A stretch of 7,177 nucleotides of DNA from DASVDK01 sp036381125 [NCBI: Thermodesulfobacteriota bacterium] (GTDB lineage Bacteria; DASVDK01), in contig DASVDK010000114.1 in assembly GCA_036381125.1 (NCBI GenBank), positions 1 to 7,177 on the forward strand, written 5' to 3'. Position 1 is the first letter of the stretch; each line of letters begins with the position of its first letter. The notes beneath the pieces were generated by a model, which worked only from the letters and a program-made list of their open reading frames with translations, was not told the origin of the DNA and did not search any database. This document shows positions 1,337 to 7,177 of the stretch, in pieces. The position numbers and the translations under genes are program-made.

Positions 1337-1425
1337 CCCCCTGGGCCCGGGGGCTTCACCCCTCGCGACCACTCGACAGGTCGACCCGGTCACGCACGTG
1401 GCGCAGGCGCCGTGCCGCCGCCTGC
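1337..1425 (+). other. Hairpin-rich nrdJ 5' leader
   Basis: Three inverted repeats lie between the candidate promoter and the ribosome site: CCCCC/GGGGG (1337-1341 with 1349-1353), TCGAC/GTCGA (1373-1377 with 1380-1384, only two bases between) and GCAGGCG/CGCCTGC (1403-1409 with 1419-1425, 9-base loop). I do not recognise a cobalamin riboswitch or another named riboswitch, and no B12-box arrangement is present in the leader. At this GC content short inverted repeats arise easily, so a structured regulatory RNA is only a possibility. Confidence 0.3.
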
Positions 1426-1477
1426 TGCCGTGGTGGACGCGTGGCGTGGCGGCGAGGGCGACGCGAACCCTCTCAGT

Positions 1478-1482
1478 GGAGG
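1478..1482 (+). promoter_or_regulatory. Ribosome binding site that sets the nrdJ start
   Basis: GGAGG ends 9 bases before a GTG at 1492. This favours GTG 1492 over the longer in-frame opening at GTG 1441, which has no such motif. The protein then starts MPKAPVSEEKKG. Confidence 0.8.
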
Positions 1483-1491
1483 TATCCGACA

Positions 1492-4400
1492 GTGCCGAAA
1501 GCGCCCGTGAGCGAGGAGAAGAAGGGGACCCAGACGGCCAGGACGAGCCAGGAGGTCCCGGCTCCCGATGGTGCCGCGCCTCGCCGAGGGATCAGCGTCG
1601 CGCGCCGATTCACGGTGAAGGGCCGGCACCCGTTCGACACTGTCGAGTGGGAACTCCGGACGGCCGTGATCACCAACGAGAAGGGCGAGGTCGTCTTCGA
1701 GCAGAAGGGGATCGAGTTCCCGAAGTTCTGGAGCCAGATGGCGACGAACGTCGTCGCCTCCAAGTACTTCCGCGGGCCGCTCGGCTCGCCCGAGCGCGAG
1801 CGCAGCGTCCGCCAGCTCATCGGGCGGGTCGTCCGGCGCATCCGCGAGTGGGGCGAGGCGGGGGGCTACTTCGCCACGCCGGACGACGCCGAGGCGTTCG
1901 CCGACGAGCTGACCCACATCCTCCTCCACCAGCAGATGGCCTTCAACAGCCCCGTCTGGTTCAACCTCGGCGTGCCCGACACCCGGCAGCAGGTCTCGGC
2001 CTGCTTCATCAACTCCGTCGAGGACACGATGGAGTCGATCCTCGAGCTGGCCAAGACCGAGGGGATGCTCTTCAAGGGCGGCTCGGGCACCGGCACGAAC
2101 TTCTCCACGATCCGCTCCTCCAGGGAGCCGCTGGCCGGCGGCGGCACCGCCTCCGGGCCGGTCTCCTTCATGCGCGGCTACGACAGCTTCGCCGGCGTCA
2201 TCAAGAGCGGCGGCAAGACGCGGCGCGCGGCCAAGATGGTCATCCTCAACGCCGACCACCCGGACATCGTCGAGTTCATCCGCTGCAAGATGGACGAGGA
2301 GAAGAAGGCCTGGGCCCTCATCGACGCCGGCTACGAGGGCGGCTTCAACGTGATGGGCGGCGCCTACGACTCCATCCAGTTCCAGAACGCCAACCACTCG
2401 GTCCGGGCCACCGACGAGTTCATGCGGGCGGCCGTCGAGGACCGCGAGTGGGTGACGAAGGCCGTGACGACCGGCGAGCCGATGGAGCGGCACCGGGCAA
2501 GGGAGCTGCTGCGCCTCATCGCCGAGAGCACCTGGGTCTGCGGCGACCCGGGGATGCAGTTCGACACGACGATCAACGACTGGCACACCTGCATCAACAC
2601 CGACCGGATCCACGCGAGCAATCCGTGCGTCACGGGTGACACGCTCGTGGGGACCGCCGACGGGTGGCAGCGGATCGACGCCCTCGTCGGCCGGTCGGCT
2701 CGGGTCATCGGCGCCGACGGCCAGCCGCACTTCGTGACGCGCATCTTCCCGACGGGCCGCAAGCCGGTCTTCCGGCTTCGCACCCGGGCCGGCTACGAGG
2801 TTCGCATCACGGGCAACCACAAGGTGCTCACGGTGGAGCGCGGGGACGTCCCGGTCGAGGATCTCGCCATCGGCGAGCGCATCCACCTCGCCGGCGCGGG
2901 CTTCGGCCGGCGGACGCTCCCCTCCGCGACCGCGCTCGCCGTCGGCGTGGCGGTGGGCGACGGCTGCCTTTCGCGCACGACCCACGCGAGCAGCGTCCAG
3001 GAGATCGTCACGCTCACCATGGCGGCCGCCGAGGCAGGGGTCCTGCGGACCATCGCCGAGGCGCTCAACGAGGAGACCGCCTCTCTGGCCGCGGTCGGAG
3101 CCGACGGTCGAAGCGGCCGCCCGGTTCACGTGCGGGTGAACGGGAACGGCGCGAGGCTCGCGTTCTCCTCCCGGCGAGCCGTCGAGACGTTCAAGAGCCT
3201 CGCCGTGCTCGACGAGGGATCGGATCGCAAGCGGTTCCTCCCGGCGGTGTTCGATCTCGATCGGGCCTCCCTCGCCGCGATGCTGCGAGGCCTCTTCACG
3301 GCCGACGGGACGGTTGCCAACTACGGCGAGAAGAGCCAGTACGTCTCGCTCGACTCGACGTCGCTCGAGCTGCTCAAGCAGGTCCAGGTGCTCCTGCTCG
3401 GATTCGGCATCAAGTCCAGGCTCTACACCGAGCGCCGGGCCGGCGTCACGGCCGCCATCCTGCCGGACGGGCAGGGCGGGGCCCGGCGCTACCCGGTCGT
3501 CGAGATGCACTCGCTCCGGATCAGCCGCGCCTCGCGGTTCGTCTTCGAGCGCGAGATCGGCTTCGATCCCGCGAGCCCGAAGGCCGCGGCTCTGGCCCGG
3601 CTCAACGCCGAGGTCGGCGCGTACCGGGACGAGATGACGGACGCCGTCGCCTCGATCGAGCCGCTCGGCGAGGAGGACGTCTTCGACCTCACCGAGCCGG
3701 TGACGTCGCACTTCGTGGCGAACGGGCTCGTCGTGCACAACTGCTCCGAGTACATGCACCTCAACGACTCGGCCTGCAACCTCGCGTCGCTGAACCTCAT
3801 GCGGTTCGTCGACGAGCAGGGCGAGTTCGACGTCGAGGCGTTCAAGCACGCCTCGGCCATCACGATCACGGCCATGGAGATCCTGGTCGGCTTCGCGGAC
3901 TACCCGACGCCGAAGATCGCGAAGAACGCCCACGCGTTCCGCCAGCTCGGCATCGGCTTCGCGAACCTCGGCGCCCTGCTGATGGCGCGCGGCCTGCCGT
4001 ACGACAGCGACGCCGGCCGACACTACGCGGGGGCGATCGCGGCCCTCATGAGCGGCAACTGCTACGCCCAGTCGGCGAGGATCGCCTCGGTCCTGGGGCC
4101 GTTCGACGGCTACGCCGTCAACCGCGAGCCGATGCTGCGGGTCATGGAGAAGCACCGCGCGGCCGTCGGCAAGATCAGCCCGATGCACGTACCGCTCGAC
4201 CTCCTCGGGGCCGCGCGTCAGGCGTGGGACGAGGCGCTCGAGCTGGGCCGGCAGCACGGCTACCGGAACTCGCAGATCTCGGTCATCGCGCCGACCGGGA
4301 CCATCGCGTTCATGATGGACTGCGACACGACCGGCATCGAGCCCGACATCGCCCTGGTGAAGTACAAGAAGCTCGTGGGGGGCGGCGTCCTCAAGATCGT

Positions 4401-5445
4401 CAACAACACGGTGCCGGTGGCGCTCAGGCGGCTCGGGTACGACGACCCGCAGATCAAGGCGATCGTCGAGTACATCGACGAGAACGGCACCATCGAGGGG
4501 GCGCCGGAACTCGACCCGGCCGACCTGCCGGTCTTCGACTGCGCCTTCCGCCCGACCAACGGCACGCGGTCGATCCACTACATGGGGCACCTCAAGATGA
4601 TGGCGGCGGTCCAGCCCTTCATCTCGGGCGCCATCAGCAAGACGATCAACGTGCCGAACGAGGCGTCGGTCGACGAGATCATGCAGGCTTACATCGAGGC
4701 CTGGCGGCTCGGCCTCAAGGCGGTGGCCATCTACCGCGACGGCAGCAAGCGGAGCCAGCCGCTCTCGACCTCGAAGGACAAGGAGAAGAGCGAGGAGGCG
4801 CCCGTCGCGCGCCCGGTGCGCCGCAAGCTGCCGGACGAGCGGGCCTCGATCACCCACAAGTTCTCCATCGCCGGCCACGAGGGCTACATCACGGTCGGCA
4901 TGTACGAGGACGGGCAGCCGGGCGAGATCTTCGTGGTGATGGCCAAGGAGGGCTCGGTCGTCTCGGGCCTCATGGACTCCTTCGCGACCGCCATCTCGCT
5001 CGCCCTGCAGTACGGGGTCCCGCTCAAGGTGCTCGTGGACAAGTTCAGCCACACGCGCTTCGAGCCGGCCGGGTTCACGACCAACCCGCAGATCCCGATG
5101 GCCAAGTCGATCATGGACTACATCTTCCGCTGGCTCGCCTCGAAGTTCCTCGCGAAGAGCGACCAGCAGGCGGTGGGCCTGATCGAGCGGGAGACGGCGG
5201 AGACGCCGGCCCCTCCCGCCCTGCCGGCCGGGCCATCGGCTTCGCCGGCGCGGGAGCAGGCGGGCGGCCAGCCCGGCGCCCGGGCGAAGGTGTTCGAGCT
5301 CCGGGTCAAGGACACGTCGGAGCGGACGATCACCTTCCAGAACCAGGACGACGCCCCCTCCTGCCCGGACTGCGGCGGCCTCATGGTGAGGAACGGCGCC
5401 TGCTACAAGTGCCTGAACTGCGGCTCGACCTCGGGGTGCAGCTAG
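1492..5445 (+). CDS. nrdJ: Adenosylcobalamin-dependent (class II) ribonucleotide reductase precursor with intein
   Basis: This cytosolic enzyme reduces ribonucleotides to deoxyribonucleotides for DNA synthesis, generating a thiyl radical from coenzyme B12 without oxygen or a small subunit. The precursor is 1317 residues; removing the 372-residue intein (379-750) leaves 945. No N-terminal ATP-cone is visible; the conserved reductase starts near residue 38. Key residues are redox Cys171 (in SACFINS), the split N-x-C-x-E motif (N377, P378, then C751, S752, E753) with C751 the expected radical cysteine, and the second redox Cys762 (in SACNLASLNL). C751 and C762 are 11 apart, as in Thermotoga NrdJ (322/333). 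The phosphate-binding PTGTI is at 934-938, followed by FMMDCDTTGIEPD. A TSCPD-type domain spans about 1110-1222. After a Pro/Ala linker comes a Cys-rich tail (C1291, C1294, C1304, C1307, C1310, C1316), probably a zinc ribbon plus redox shuttle. The gene stands alone behind NrdR-like boxes. The first 43 codons are variable and richer in A/T-ending codons. Confidence 0.96.
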   Translation: MPKAPVSEEKKGTQTARTSQEVPAPDGAAPRRGISVARRFTVKGRHPFDTVEWELRTAVITNEKGEVVFEQKGIEFPKFWSQMATNVVASKYFRGPLGSPERERSVRQLIGRVVRRIREWGEAGGYFATPDDAEAFADELTHILLHQQMAFNSPVWFNLGVPDTRQQVSACFINSVEDTMESILELAKTEGMLFKGGSGTGTNFSTIRSSREPLAGGGTASGPVSFMRGYDSFAGVIKSGGKTRRAAKMVILNADHPDIVEFIRCKMDEEKKAWALIDAGYEGGFNVMGGAYDSIQFQNANHSVRATDEFMRAAVEDREWVTKAVTTGEPMERHRARELLRLIAESTWVCGDPGMQFDTTINDWHTCINTDRIHASNPCVTGDTLVGTADGWQRIDALVGRSARVIGADGQPHFVTRIFPTGRKPVFRLRTRAGYEVRITGNHKVLTVERGDVPVEDLAIGERIHLAGAGFGRRTLPSATALAVGVAVGDGCLSRTTHASSVQEIVTLTMAAAEAGVLRTIAEALNEETASLAAVGADGRSGRPVHVRVNGNGARLAFSSRRAVETFKSLAVLDEGSDRKRFLPAVFDLDRASLAAMLRGLFTADGTVANYGEKSQYVSLDSTSLELLKQVQVLLLGFGIKSRLYTERRAGVTAAILPDGQGGARRYPVVEMHSLRISRASRFVFEREIGFDPASPKAAALARLNAEVGAYRDEMTDAVASIEPLGEEDVFDLTEPVTSHFVANGLVVHNCSEYMHLNDSACNLASLNLMRFVDEQGEFDVEAFKHASAITITAMEILVGFADYPTPKIAKNAHAFRQLGIGFANLGALLMARGLPYDSDAGRHYAGAIAALMSGNCYAQSARIASVLGPFDGYAVNREPMLRVMEKHRAAVGKISPMHVPLDLLGAARQAWDEALELGRQHGYRNSQISVIAPTGTIAFMMDCDTTGIEPDIALVKYKKLVGGGVLKIVNNTVPVALRRLGYDDPQIKAIVEYIDENGTIEGAPELDPADLPVFDCAFRPTNGTRSIHYMGHLKMMAAVQPFISGAISKTINVPNEASVDEIMQAYIEAWRLGLKAVAIYRDGSKRSQPLSTSKDKEKSEEAPVARPVRRKLPDERASITHKFSIAGHEGYITVGMYEDGQPGEIFVVMAKEGSVVSGLMDSFATAISLALQYGVPLKVLVDKFSHTRFEPAGFTTNPQIPMAKSIMDYIFRWLASKFLAKSDQQAVGLIERETAETPAPPALPAGPSASPAREQAGGQPGARAKVFELRVKDTSERTITFQNQDDAPSCPDCGGLMVRNGACYKCLNCGSTSGCS
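2626..3741 (+). other. Intein with LAGLIDADG endonuclease inside nrdJ
   Basis: This 372-residue in-frame insertion (precursor residues 379-750) is bounded by ASNP|CVTGDT and VVHN|CSEY. Splicing motifs are complete: block A Cys379, block B TGNH (T440, H443), block F around DVFDLTEPVTSHFVANG, and block G His749-Asn750 followed by Cys+1 (751). It is therefore a class 1 intein, expected to excise itself and ligate N-P to C-S-E. The middle holds a two-motif LAGLIDADG homing endonuclease: LAVGVAVGDG with Asp490 and LRGLFTADG with Asp605, 115 residues apart. The second follows the typical RKRFLPAVF lead-in, and SLELLKQVQVLLLGFGIKSR lies after it. Both acidic residues are present and no frameshift is seen, so the endonuclease may be active. 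A/T-ending codons make up 22 of 372 here, against about 1% in the flanking reductase core. Confidence 0.95.
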
Positions 5446-5508
5446 GGGGCCAGCCCGCCCGGAGGGAGGCCACGCTCTGCCGGGCCTCCCGATGACCCGG
5501 GGAGGTTG
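5431..5508 (+). repeat. Imperfect direct repeat, copy 1 (end of nrdJ and its 3' flank)
   Basis: This copy covers the last four codons and stop of nrdJ and the 63 bases beyond. Positions 5459-5508 align without gaps to 5668-5717 with 43 of 50 identical. The preceding TCGGGGTGCAGC aligns to TCGGGGTAGAGC at 5649 after a 9-base gap (TAGGGGGCC, which includes the stop codon, is absent from copy 2). Confidence 0.8.
5464..5490 (+). terminator. Hairpin just after the nrdJ stop
   Basis: GGGAGGCC at 5464-5471 pairs with GGCCTCCC at 5483-5490 around an 11-base loop, 18 bases past the stop codon. No T-run follows, so it may protect the 3' end of the message rather than terminate. In the second copy of the direct repeat the right arm is changed (GGCCGACC), so this stem is not conserved there. 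Confidence 0.4.
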
Positions 5509-5544
5509 AAACTCAACCTGATCACGGCCGACTGTGGTTCGGCC
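5503..5544 (+). other. Two adjacent small hairpins in the convergent gap
   Basis: AGGTTGA (5503-5509) pairs with TCAACCT (5513-5519) around a 3-base loop, and GGCCGA (5526-5531) pairs with TCGGCC (5539-5544) around CTGTGGT. They lie between the post-nrdJ hairpin and the strong terminator-like stem, so the nrdJ 3' region would fold into a row of four stem-loops. No known RNA family was recognised. Confidence 0.35.
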
Positions 5545-5558
5545 GGCATGTGGCACGG

Positions 5559-5600
5559 CGCCCCGCCGGGAGGAGCGACCCGGCGGGGCGTTCTCGTTCC
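5559..5600 (+). terminator. Strong terminator-like stem for nrdJ
   Basis: CGCCCCGCCGGG (5559-5570) pairs perfectly over 12 bp with CCCGGCGGGGCG (5579-5590) around the loop AGGAGCGA. It is followed on the plus strand by TTCTCGTTCC, a poor but T-enriched tail. The reverse direction has no T-tract, so it fits termination of rightward nrdJ transcription better. It lies 113 bases after the nrdJ stop and could also block read-through between the two convergent genes. Confidence 0.6.
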
Positions 5601-5648
5601 ACGGGTCCATCCCTCGGGCTCTCCCCAGCCGGCCGAGGCGCAATCGGT

Positions 5649-5717
5649 TCGGGGTAGAGCAGCCGGTCCGGAGGGAGGCCAGGCGCTGCCGGGCCGACCG
5701 ACGAGCCGGGGAGGGTG
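5649..5717 (+). repeat. Imperfect direct repeat, copy 2 (degenerate nrdJ tail duplicate)
   Basis: This is the second copy of the element at 5431-5508, offset by 209 bp over its ungapped part (43 of 50 identical). It ends directly at the stop codon of the minus-strand transporter gene (5718-5720). It has lost the nrdJ stop codon and the hairpin of copy 1. No transposase or target-site features accompany it, so tandem duplication with intervening sequence, or a repeat family of this genome, are the plausible origins. Confidence 0.7.
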
Positions 5718-5747
5718 TCAGGAGGGGGGCGGAGCCTCTCTCCTGAC
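5717..5747 (-). terminator. Hairpin overlapping the 3' end of the transporter gene
   Basis: GTCAGGAG (5717-5724) pairs with CTCCTGAC (5740-5747), a perfect 8-bp stem with a 15-base GC-rich loop. In the minus-strand message the stop codon TGA lies in the stem. No T-tract follows, so it may stabilise the 3' end or aid termination; this is inferred from structure only. Confidence 0.35.
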
Positions 5748-7177
5748 GCCGATGCAGAGCGCGGCTCCCCCCGCGCCGGCCGCCGTCGCCGCGCAGAGCA
5801 GCATCACCCAACGGAACGCCTCCAGGAACGCCTCGTCGATCGCCTGTTCGAGGGCGGCGCGCTGCTCGTGGGACACCCGGTCGGGCACCCGCGCCCCGGC
5901 GAGCCGCGTTGCCTCGGCCACGACCGCACGTGCCGCCTCGGGCGGCACGGGGAGGGCGGCGACCCGCCGCTCGAGCGCTGGACCGAAGACGGCAAGCGCC
6001 TGGACGCTGGACACGGCCACGGCGATCAGCGACCCGAGGCGAGTCACGGCGTTGTTGACGCCTGCCGCGATGCCGGCCCGCGACTCGCCGTGCGCGCTCA
6101 TCACGGCGGTCGTGAGCGGCGCGTCGGTGACGGCGACGCCGAGGCCGAGCACGACCAGGGGCGGGAAGAAGGTGGTCCAGTACGAGCCGCCGATCCCGGC
6201 CCACGCGAAGCCGGCAAAGCCGAGGGCCGAGACGAGCGGCCCGACGACGAGCGGCAGCCGGTCGCCGTAGCGGTCGCGGACCCTCCCTGCCCAGCGGGAC
6301 AGAAGGGCCAGGACGAGGGTGGCGGGGAGGAGGGCCGTGCCGGTGGCGGTGGCCGAGTAGCCCTGGACCTGGACCAGGTTGAACGGGAGGAAGAACATCG
6401 CCGTCCCGAGCGCGCCGTAGAGGAGGAAGGTCAGGACGTTCAGCGCGGTGAACGTCCGCGACCGGAAGAGCCCGAGCGGCATCATCGGCGCGGGGGCCTG
6501 CGCCTCGACGGCGAGGAAGCCGGCGAGGAGGACGAGCCCGGTGACGAACGCCGGAGGCGACCCCTCGATGAGACCGTAGGTCACGCTCCCGAACCCCGCG
6601 ACGGCGAGGAGCGCCCCGCGCAGATCGAGCGGCCCCGCGGCGACGTCGGCCCGGCTTTCGGGCACGTATCGGCGCGTCAGGATCACGCTCGCGATCGCGA
6701 CCGGCACGGCGACGAGGAAGACGGCCCGCCAGGAGACGGCATCGACGAGCGCGCCGCCCAGGAGCCTCCCGGCCGCGGTCACGATGGCCGCAGCGGCGGT
6801 CCAGGTGCCGATGATGAGGCCCCGCCGCCCGGGCGGGGCCGTGGACGTGACGATGGCAAGGCTCACCGGGATGACCAGGGCCGCTCCGAGGCCCTGGAGC
6901 GCGCGCGCGGCGAGGAGGACCGGCACGTTCGGCGCGAGCCCGCAGGCGACCGACGCGACGGCGAAGAGCCCGACGCCGAGCGTGAAGACCAGCCGCCGGC
7001 CGAACCGGTCGCCGACGGCGCCGCCGACGAGGATGAGCGCTCCGAGGACGAGCATGTAGCTGTTGACGACCCACTGCATGGCGCGCGCGTCGGCAGCGAG
7101 CGCCCGTTGCATGGCCGGCAGGGCGACGTTCGTGGTGGACGCCTCGAGGAACTCCAGGCTCGAGCCGAGGAAGATCG
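5718..7177 (-). CDS. MFS efflux transporter, DHA2 (14-TM, EmrB/QacA-like) family (5' end beyond the window)
   Basis: This is an inner-membrane proton-driven exporter, probably of drugs or toxic organics; the substrate is unknown. The frame stays open to the right edge (485 residues visible). The first ATG inside the window (7112) is not the start, because the codons before it read FLEASTTNVALPAM, the first transmembrane helix with the family motif (usually LDxTIVNVALP). Motif A, GGAVGDRFGRR, is at visible residues 51-61, and RALQGLGAALVIP follows in helix 4. Motif C is altered: GRLLGG where GPxxGG is usual, followed by SWRAVFLVAVP. Many hydrophobic helices continue to the C-terminus, with a soluble loop of about 57 residues (398-454) before the last helix, as often seen in 14-TM members. 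Only a few N-terminal residues should be missing. The gene converges on nrdJ; no regulator is visible. Confidence 0.9.
   Translation of the reverse strand, partial: IFLGSSLEFLEASTTNVALPAMQRALAADARAMQWVVNSYMLVLGALILVGGAVGDRFGRRLVFTLGVGLFAVASVACGLAPNVPVLLAARALQGLGAALVIPVSLAIVTSTAPPGRRGLIIGTWTAAAAIVTAAGRLLGGALVDAVSWRAVFLVAVPVAIASVILTRRYVPESRADVAAGPLDLRGALLAVAGFGSVTYGLIEGSPPAFVTGLVLLAGFLAVEAQAPAPMMPLGLFRSRTFTALNVLTFLLYGALGTAMFFLPFNLVQVQGYSATATGTALLPATLVLALLSRWAGRVRDRYGDRLPLVVGPLVSALGFAGFAWAGIGGSYWTTFFPPLVVLGLGVAVTDAPLTTAVMSAHGESRAGIAAGVNNAVTRLGSLIAVAVSSVQALAVFGPALERRVAALPVPPEAARAVVAEATRLAGARVPDRVSHEQRAALEQAIDEAFLEAFRWVMLLCAATAAGAGGAALCIGVRREAPPPS

Follow-up and report, generated by a model that had tools for sequence, protein, structure and literature searches.

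The stretch of DNA analysed here (the window, 7,177 nucleotides) carries nrdJ, the gene of a B12-dependent ribonucleotide reductase (RNR), and this essential enzyme is very probably interrupted directly before its thiyl-radical cysteine by an ordinary class 1 (HINT) intein whose endonuclease appears intact. The same sulfur would serve splicing chemistry first and radical chemistry later, making the window a clean case of a mobile element that depends for its survival on an essential enzyme's most constrained residue.

Anatomy of the interrupted gene

The gene begins at a GTG codon, with GGAGG upstream (1478–1482), and is laid out as follows (Tma, Thermotoga maritima NrdJ numbering; all features on the + strand).

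1492–5445, +, nrdJ precursor, 1,317 aa, class II (adenosylcobalamin-dependent) RNR with intein, GTG start
1492–2625, +, N-extein, residues 1–378, C-terminal ...HASNP
2002–2004, +, Cys171 codon, equivalent to Tma C134, the +1 residue of other inteins in L006, L007 and L026
2626–3741, +, intein, 372 aa (C1...H371 N372), HINT splicing domain with LAGLIDADG endonuclease insert
2626–2628, +, intein Cys1 (C379, TGC), invariant in 41/41
2809–2820, +, block B, TGNH; T62 and H65 invariant in 41/41
2959–2961, +, first LAGLIDADG aspartate, D112, invariant in 41/41
3304–3306, +, second LAGLIDADG aspartate, D227, invariant in 41/41
3736–3741, +, intein C-terminal His371-Asn372, invariant in 41/41
3742–5445, +, C-extein, CSEYMH..., 567 aa plus stop
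3742–3744, +, +1 splicing residue Cys751 (TGC), mature Cys379, Tma C322
3775–3777, +, mature Cys390 codon, Tma C333; the equivalent residue is +1 of inteins in L033, L102, L103 and L106

The codons of N377 (2620–2622) and P378 (2623–2625) precede the intein, N750 (3739–3741) ends it, and Cys751 is followed by S752 and E753; joined, the exteins read N-P-C-S-E. The preliminary description of this DNA had the intein splitting the N-x-C-x-E motif of the reductase, as the joined flanks bear out, and its residue numbering (N377-P378, C751-S752-E753) is exact with the GTG start at 1492; the span it gave, 2611–3756, encloses the intein but takes in 15 extra bases at either side.

On the precursor, the Pfam models Ribonuc_red_lgC (E = 3e-135), Ribonuc_red_2_N, TSCPD, Intein_splicing and LAGLIDADG_3 all score over their cut-offs, as do the NCBIfam models PRK06556 for B12-dependent RNR (1,441 bits, cut-off 859) and TIGR02504 (570, cut-off 400). 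Dependence on adenosylcobalamin is predicted from these family models.

Aligned with T. maritima NrdJ (which we take to be structure 1xje), a fragment of the joined exteins runs ungapped from query residue 87 (Tma 275) through the motif, placing the +1 cysteine at Tma 322 and the cysteine 11 residues further on at Tma 333; in the NrdJ of structure 7b9p, presumably that of S. coelicolor, the +1 cysteine is residue 476. We take Tma C322 to be the thiyl-radical cysteine of NrdJ, and C134 and C333 to be its redox-active pair. As Cys171 of the window corresponds to C99 of ref A, that is, Tma 134, the class II cysteine set is complete in the exteins (Cys171, Cys379 and Cys390). The equivalence of the +1 splicing residue and Tma C322 had been proposed beforehand, together with an alignment to check it; that alignment, gap-free, lands on 322. 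A literature search by title and abstract opening returned no account of a +1 residue that is an RNR radical cysteine, which is weak evidence of absence.

Two further genes of the window lie on the strand opposite to nrdJ, one for a CheW-like domain protein whose long tail is rich in Pro and Ala (2–1108, −) and one for an MFS transporter (5718–7112, −). An open frame of 1,894 codons also runs antisense through nrdJ (1390–7074, −), probably as a by-product of high G+C codon usage.

Integrity of the intein and proposed splicing

The window intein has the residues of a class 1 intein (C1, T62 and H65, H371-N372 and the +1 residue Cys751), matches Intein_splicing at 55.9 bits (cut-off 35.8) and LAGLIDADG_3 at 68.9 bits, and retains both catalytic aspartates, D112 and D227. 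All seven intein residues (C1, T62, H65, D112, D227, H371 and N372) are invariant across an alignment of 41 inteins (A1), consisting of the window intein and 40 relatives; L035, whose intein is cut by the contig end, is omitted from it and from the trees. Because the relatives were sampled with query-derived patterns, some of them from the endonuclease, part of the invariance seen at the two aspartates is a sampling effect. An AlphaFold2 model of the window intein, built on the 41 sequences of A1 (pLDDT 94.8, pTM 0.92), has the architecture of a HINT domain plus endonuclease, and the best PDB folds found by Foldseek are the homing inteins TliVMA (7qsu, E = 1e-16) and PI-PfuI (1dq3). Block B of the window intein (2809–2820) reads TGNH, where at least 90% of the relatives have Asp before the His (consensus TADH).

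Splicing would proceed by the standard route: Cys1 would form a thioester with Pro378; attack on it by the +1 cysteine, which later becomes the radical cysteine, would be followed by cyclisation of Asn372, and an S–N shift would leave the joined N-P-C-S-E. Proline at −1 is often reported as unfavourable to the first splicing step; it is nevertheless present in all 41 loci. It is plausible that the precursor is inactive before splicing.

Alternatively, the insert could be a non-splicing remnant in a gene that is dead or has been replaced by another reductase, as further reductases are possible in the host genome and splicing is here read from sequence. Yet the frame is open over 1,317 codons, all splicing residues and both endonuclease aspartates are present, and the exteins keep Cys171, Cys379 and Cys390, which together make such a remnant extremely improbable.

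A recurrent insertion site

A single scan of genome contigs with the window intein gave 41 loci. The N-terminal junction is NP/C (the slash marks the splice point) in 41/41, and this identity among homologues excludes chance for the window junction; the C-terminal junction is HN/C in all 40 loci readable to the C-terminal end. In the 39 loci where the motif is readable through the Glu it is always CxE, L015 stopping after the Cys and L035 inside the intein. Host groups of the relatives include Acidobacteria, Rokubacteria, Chlorobi, Planctomycetes, Sumerlaeota, Ignavibacteria, Omnitrophota and DPANN archaea, and nine relatives in viral contigs (31–51% identity) use the same site in 9/9 cases.

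Searches of whole genomes agree. Among 22 loci matched at E ≤ 1e-40 in two of these searches, the C-terminal junction is N/CxE in 21; this set includes L055, which ends inside the intein, two repeats of L001 and L002, and one gene counted as both L064 and L069. Many of the weaker loci in this set sit in another NrdJ type (NPCGEQ). The partial matches L064 and L069, in G306, flank a run of N in the assembly, and we rejected them as a split intein. We likewise set aside an origin in phages or plasmids, where matches are below 30% identity and the closer relatives (31–51%) are those in viral contigs. Of six phage or plasmid matches that were opened, four are class I RNRs (two SPbeta-type NrdE, a Proteus phage NrdA and a Miltoncostaea plasmid NrdE), L047 is followed by DnaB-like sequence and L044 came without an RNR identification.

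The preliminary description had left it as a question whether this site was on record; it recurs in bacteria, archaea, viral contigs and class I enzymes. The window intein is thus a further member of a widespread mobile family that uses the radical-cysteine site, and is not new in kind.

Mobility and persistence

Intein and host protein have different histories. Over 780 pairs from 40 rows, intein identities correlate only loosely with those of the exteins (Pearson r 0.46, Spearman 0.27), the extein being represented by 60 aa upstream of the site and 200 aa downstream of it; L015, which has no C-extein, was left out of this comparison and of the AU test. The window intein shares 70% identity with its counterparts in both L001 and L002, and the exteins are 66% and 52% identical, respectively. 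The six-member clade that contains the window intein is rejected on the extein tree (AU test, p = 1.8e-5). Such conflict between intein and host trees is expected of a mobile element, and empty alleles also exist.

We located the empty alleles in Methylomirabilota with an intein-independent search (TIGR02504), which matched 85/94 genomes. From its matches, 80 loci were hand-picked as a selection of interrupted and uninterrupted genes; 70 have a readable motif, of which 43 are empty, 11 carry inteins ending in HQ, 7 in HN, and 9 carry an element ending in Ser-Arg-Gly (SRG). The other ten, without a readable GEQ motif, were dropped (L094, L104, L107, L108, L109, L166, L167, L168, L170 and L187); this group includes L107 and L109, which are SRG loci, as well as L104 and L108, which are cut off. 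On a 69-row NrdJ tree, from which L105 was omitted for its second intein, the empty, HN, HQ and SRG states are interleaved and need 19 changes; the inteins on this tree are mostly of other types than the window's, at the identical site. Branches of 0.004 and 0 separate the HQ gene of G046 from the empty gene of G045, which is almost identical to it. These two genes, G046:C155 (L095, with a 410-aa intein) and G045:C142 (L178, exactly empty, its C-extein nearly identical), form a natural pair for the study of homing or loss.

Two properties of the site may account for persistence of the intein: its near-invariance would provide a dependable homing target, and a working enzyme would be regained only after exact removal of the insert from the gene. 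Related genes hold exactly empty sites, which fits the idea that only exact loss is tolerated.

The preliminary description had suggested that splicing could act as a redox- or metal-sensitive switch on dNTP supply. On such a reading a reversible disulfide between Cys1 and the +1 cysteine, for example, or zinc bound to both, would make splicing responsive, and the intein would have been kept for this response. There are precedents: the DnaBi1 intein of M. smegmatis is inhibited by H2O2 through a disulfide (PMC6195587), the Aquifex NrdB intein, between iron ligands, raises iron loading (PMC8772380), and a title among the references of PMC4031507 names a disulfide between catalytic cysteines of an intein precursor. 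In the window, both residues in question are cysteines, a disulfide with Cys114 is conceivable, and another cysteine lies in the N-extein, 12 residues ahead of Cys1. We found nothing specific to such a switch, however. The window intein contains no cysteines but Cys1 and Cys114, and the +1 cysteine is the only one next to it. The Cys114 column, Cys in 38/41 inteins, adjoins a LAGLIDADG aspartate and has no other distinguishing feature, and beyond it and Cys1 the number and place of cysteines vary among the 41. Presence is sporadic, with A1 matches at E ≤ 1e-40 in 12/95, 9/247 and 7/246 genomes of three phyla, and related inteins at this site alternate between presence and absence across the NrdJ tree, a pattern more in keeping with a mobile element than with a regulator that has been retained. 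We therefore consider a conditional switch improbable and prefer mobility as the account of this intein. The window has no Rfam match above the gathering score that would point to a regulatory RNA.

Inteins at all three catalytic cysteines

The radical cysteine is one of several positions at which inteins interrupt NrdJ. In ref A numbering, mapped over loci other than L042–L069, inserts lie at 123 (HK/S), 127 (GGG/T), 170 (GG/T), 282 (NP/C) and 293 (EA/C), with a partial one at 541 (SK/T); further sites in the window-type enzyme are 564 (APTG/T), 199 (GSG/T) and 170 (A/C). Automatic insert calls of about 90–100 residues at 622–627 have no intein junctions, and we judged them to be extein length differences.

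Every +1-cysteine insert readable to both ends lies before one of the three catalytic cysteines: before the equivalent of Tma C134 in L006, L007 and L026, before that of C333 in L033, L102, L103 and L106 (and partly L105), and before that of C322 in the remainder. As read from these junctions, all three catalytic cysteines act as predicted splicing nucleophiles somewhere in the NrdJ family. These cysteines are highly constrained, and residue conservation alone could explain the pattern; why +1-cysteine inteins in class II RNR lie only there is a testable question.

Some of these genes carry several inteins in different conserved motifs: three in L006 and in L096, and apparently four, two of them partial, in L106 (G083:C166). 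Inteins ending in HQ at the NP/C site were seen in L086, L090, L093, L095, L096, L097, L098, L100, L101, L102 and L106; ten are of 409–411 aa and that of L098 is a 173-aa mini form.

A HINT element ending in Arg-Gly

In 13/94 Methylomirabilota genomes the NP/C site holds a HINT element of about 132 aa without endonuclease (E ≤ 4e-59; 11 copies full-length, two cut off). The full-length copies are as follows.

L079, 1988–2380, +, SRG element
L081, 336–731, +, SRG element
L084, 3064–3459, +, SRG element
L085, 1458–1853, −, SRG element
L088, 3263–3658, +, SRG element
L089, 1504–1899, −, SRG element
L103, 2473–2868, −, SRG element
L105, 2475–2870, −, SRG element
L107, 441–836, −, SRG element
L109, 147–542, −, SRG element
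L190, SRG element

Another 23 genomes of the phylum gave only weak matches (E 1e-8 to 1e-5), in most cases to the N-terminal region of other inteins; 247 Acidobacteriota genomes gave weak matches only, in two, and no relative was confirmed in viral contigs. The element keeps C1, T60 and H63 and has an invariant Cys82 (10 rows), and its Pfam match is weak, with Hint_2 below cut-off. Arg-Gly stands directly before CGEQ in 11/11 full-length copies, giving Ser-Arg-Gly in place of Ser-His-Asn. Since a DnaB-like mini-intein of the same phylum (L129) reads SWLADGIVSHN/S at the corresponding place, His-Asn has become Arg-Gly in this element.

Several lines of evidence bear on whether the element is kept. 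First, it is under purifying selection, with a pN/pS of 0.24 over 11 copies, where the L190 row has about 32 extra residues ahead of the element, and likewise 0.24 over 10; in its last 26 codons pN is 0.07 against a pS of 0.68. Second, the pN/pS of the C-extein is 0.21 in seven SRG genes, 0.23 in 21 empty genes and 0.27 in nine HN or HQ genes (37 of 66 readable loci, those starting CGEQPLLPNEACNLGSLNV; three pairs with pS ≤ 0.2 were dropped, and L103 and L105, which run into a second intein, are left out). This match to the empty genes indicates that the SRG-bearing reductase is not relaxed. Third, among 12 SRG genomes tested (G049 left out), a second large subunit with an empty site occurs in three (G084, G086 and G089), the frame of the G089 copy breaking once further on. 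In the other nine we found no second RNR large subunit, a provisional count given that genome completeness is not stated; in G096 a short piece at a contig end was counted as part of the same reductase gene. No NrdD was found in the 12 genomes at E ≤ 1e-5.

Two observations count against an old, stable role of the element. The SRG state occurs at scattered places of the NrdJ tree (7 changes, of which starred branches force at least three), its clustering hardly above that of shuffled labels (124/500 shuffles as low), and synonymous divergence of the element exceeds that of the neighbouring extein in 21/21 pairs (medians 0.68 and 0.39). Given this excess and scatter, the element may have moved between lineages despite its lack of an endonuclease, or the extein may be unusually slow to change.

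An Arg-Gly tail on a kept element could mean splicing without a terminal Asn. The C-terminal intein residues named in the accessible part of a review are Asn, Gln, Asp and Glu, with Gly not among them (PMC4031507), and a search by title and abstract opening for Gly-terminated inteins returned none, again weak evidence of absence. If the element splices, it does so without any of these four residues; if it does not, the HINT domain stays at the radical loop of an RNR that either functions in its presence or is gated by it. From an Arg-Gly HINT domain under purifying selection in constrained reductases that are often the only ones found, we tentatively suggest, as a possibility that we rate below even, that the radical-cysteine site has long been used for splicing, with at least one rebuilding there of the usual chemistry. 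The question of how a reductase that looks functional can keep a HINT element lacking its terminal asparagine is open to test, and it is this element, with the three-cysteine pattern, that deserves follow-up.

Comparison with known systems

The fast split intein NrdJ-1 has the extein context NPC/SEI, the same NrdJ active-site motif as in the window; it differs in being split, in its insertion one residue later and in having Ser, not the radical Cys, at +1. The NCBIfam model NF006207 (PRK08332, 1,684 positions), whose source we take to be of the Pyrococcus RIR1 type, aligns residues 40–372 of the window intein at positions 940–1241 and, on the whole precursor, residues 418 through the C-extein to 1100 at positions 940–1571. 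It seems to include an intein at the equivalent position, a likeness read at the level of place; its full-length score is 313 against a cut-off of 2,400.

Class I inteins, in SPbeta-family NrdE (bnrdE) and other hosts (L042, L043, L045 and L046), have SNL/C...N/C[STV]E, the class I form of N-x-C-x-E, with TNL in place of SNL in the Proteus phage. They differ from the window intein in their class Ia or Ib hosts, in intein identity (24–29%) and in ending, all four, in Gly-Asn rather than His-Asn. About 80 RNR inteins had been curated in RNRdb by 2009 (PMC2795772). The RNR intein of Chilo iridescent virus ends in Gln, unlike the window intein with its Asn, and recalls the HQ/C inteins of Methylomirabilota, a likeness of RNR host and Gln, site aside (PMC4031507). 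Finally, NrdB of Aquifex aeolicus likewise carries a LAGLIDADG intein at the catalytic heart of an RNR, with Cys at +1, and this intein is removed in E. coli; it differs in lying in the small subunit, between the iron ligands Glu228 and His231, and its +1 residue, Cys230, is not described as catalytic in the accessible part of that report, unlike the +1 cysteine of the window (PMC8772380).
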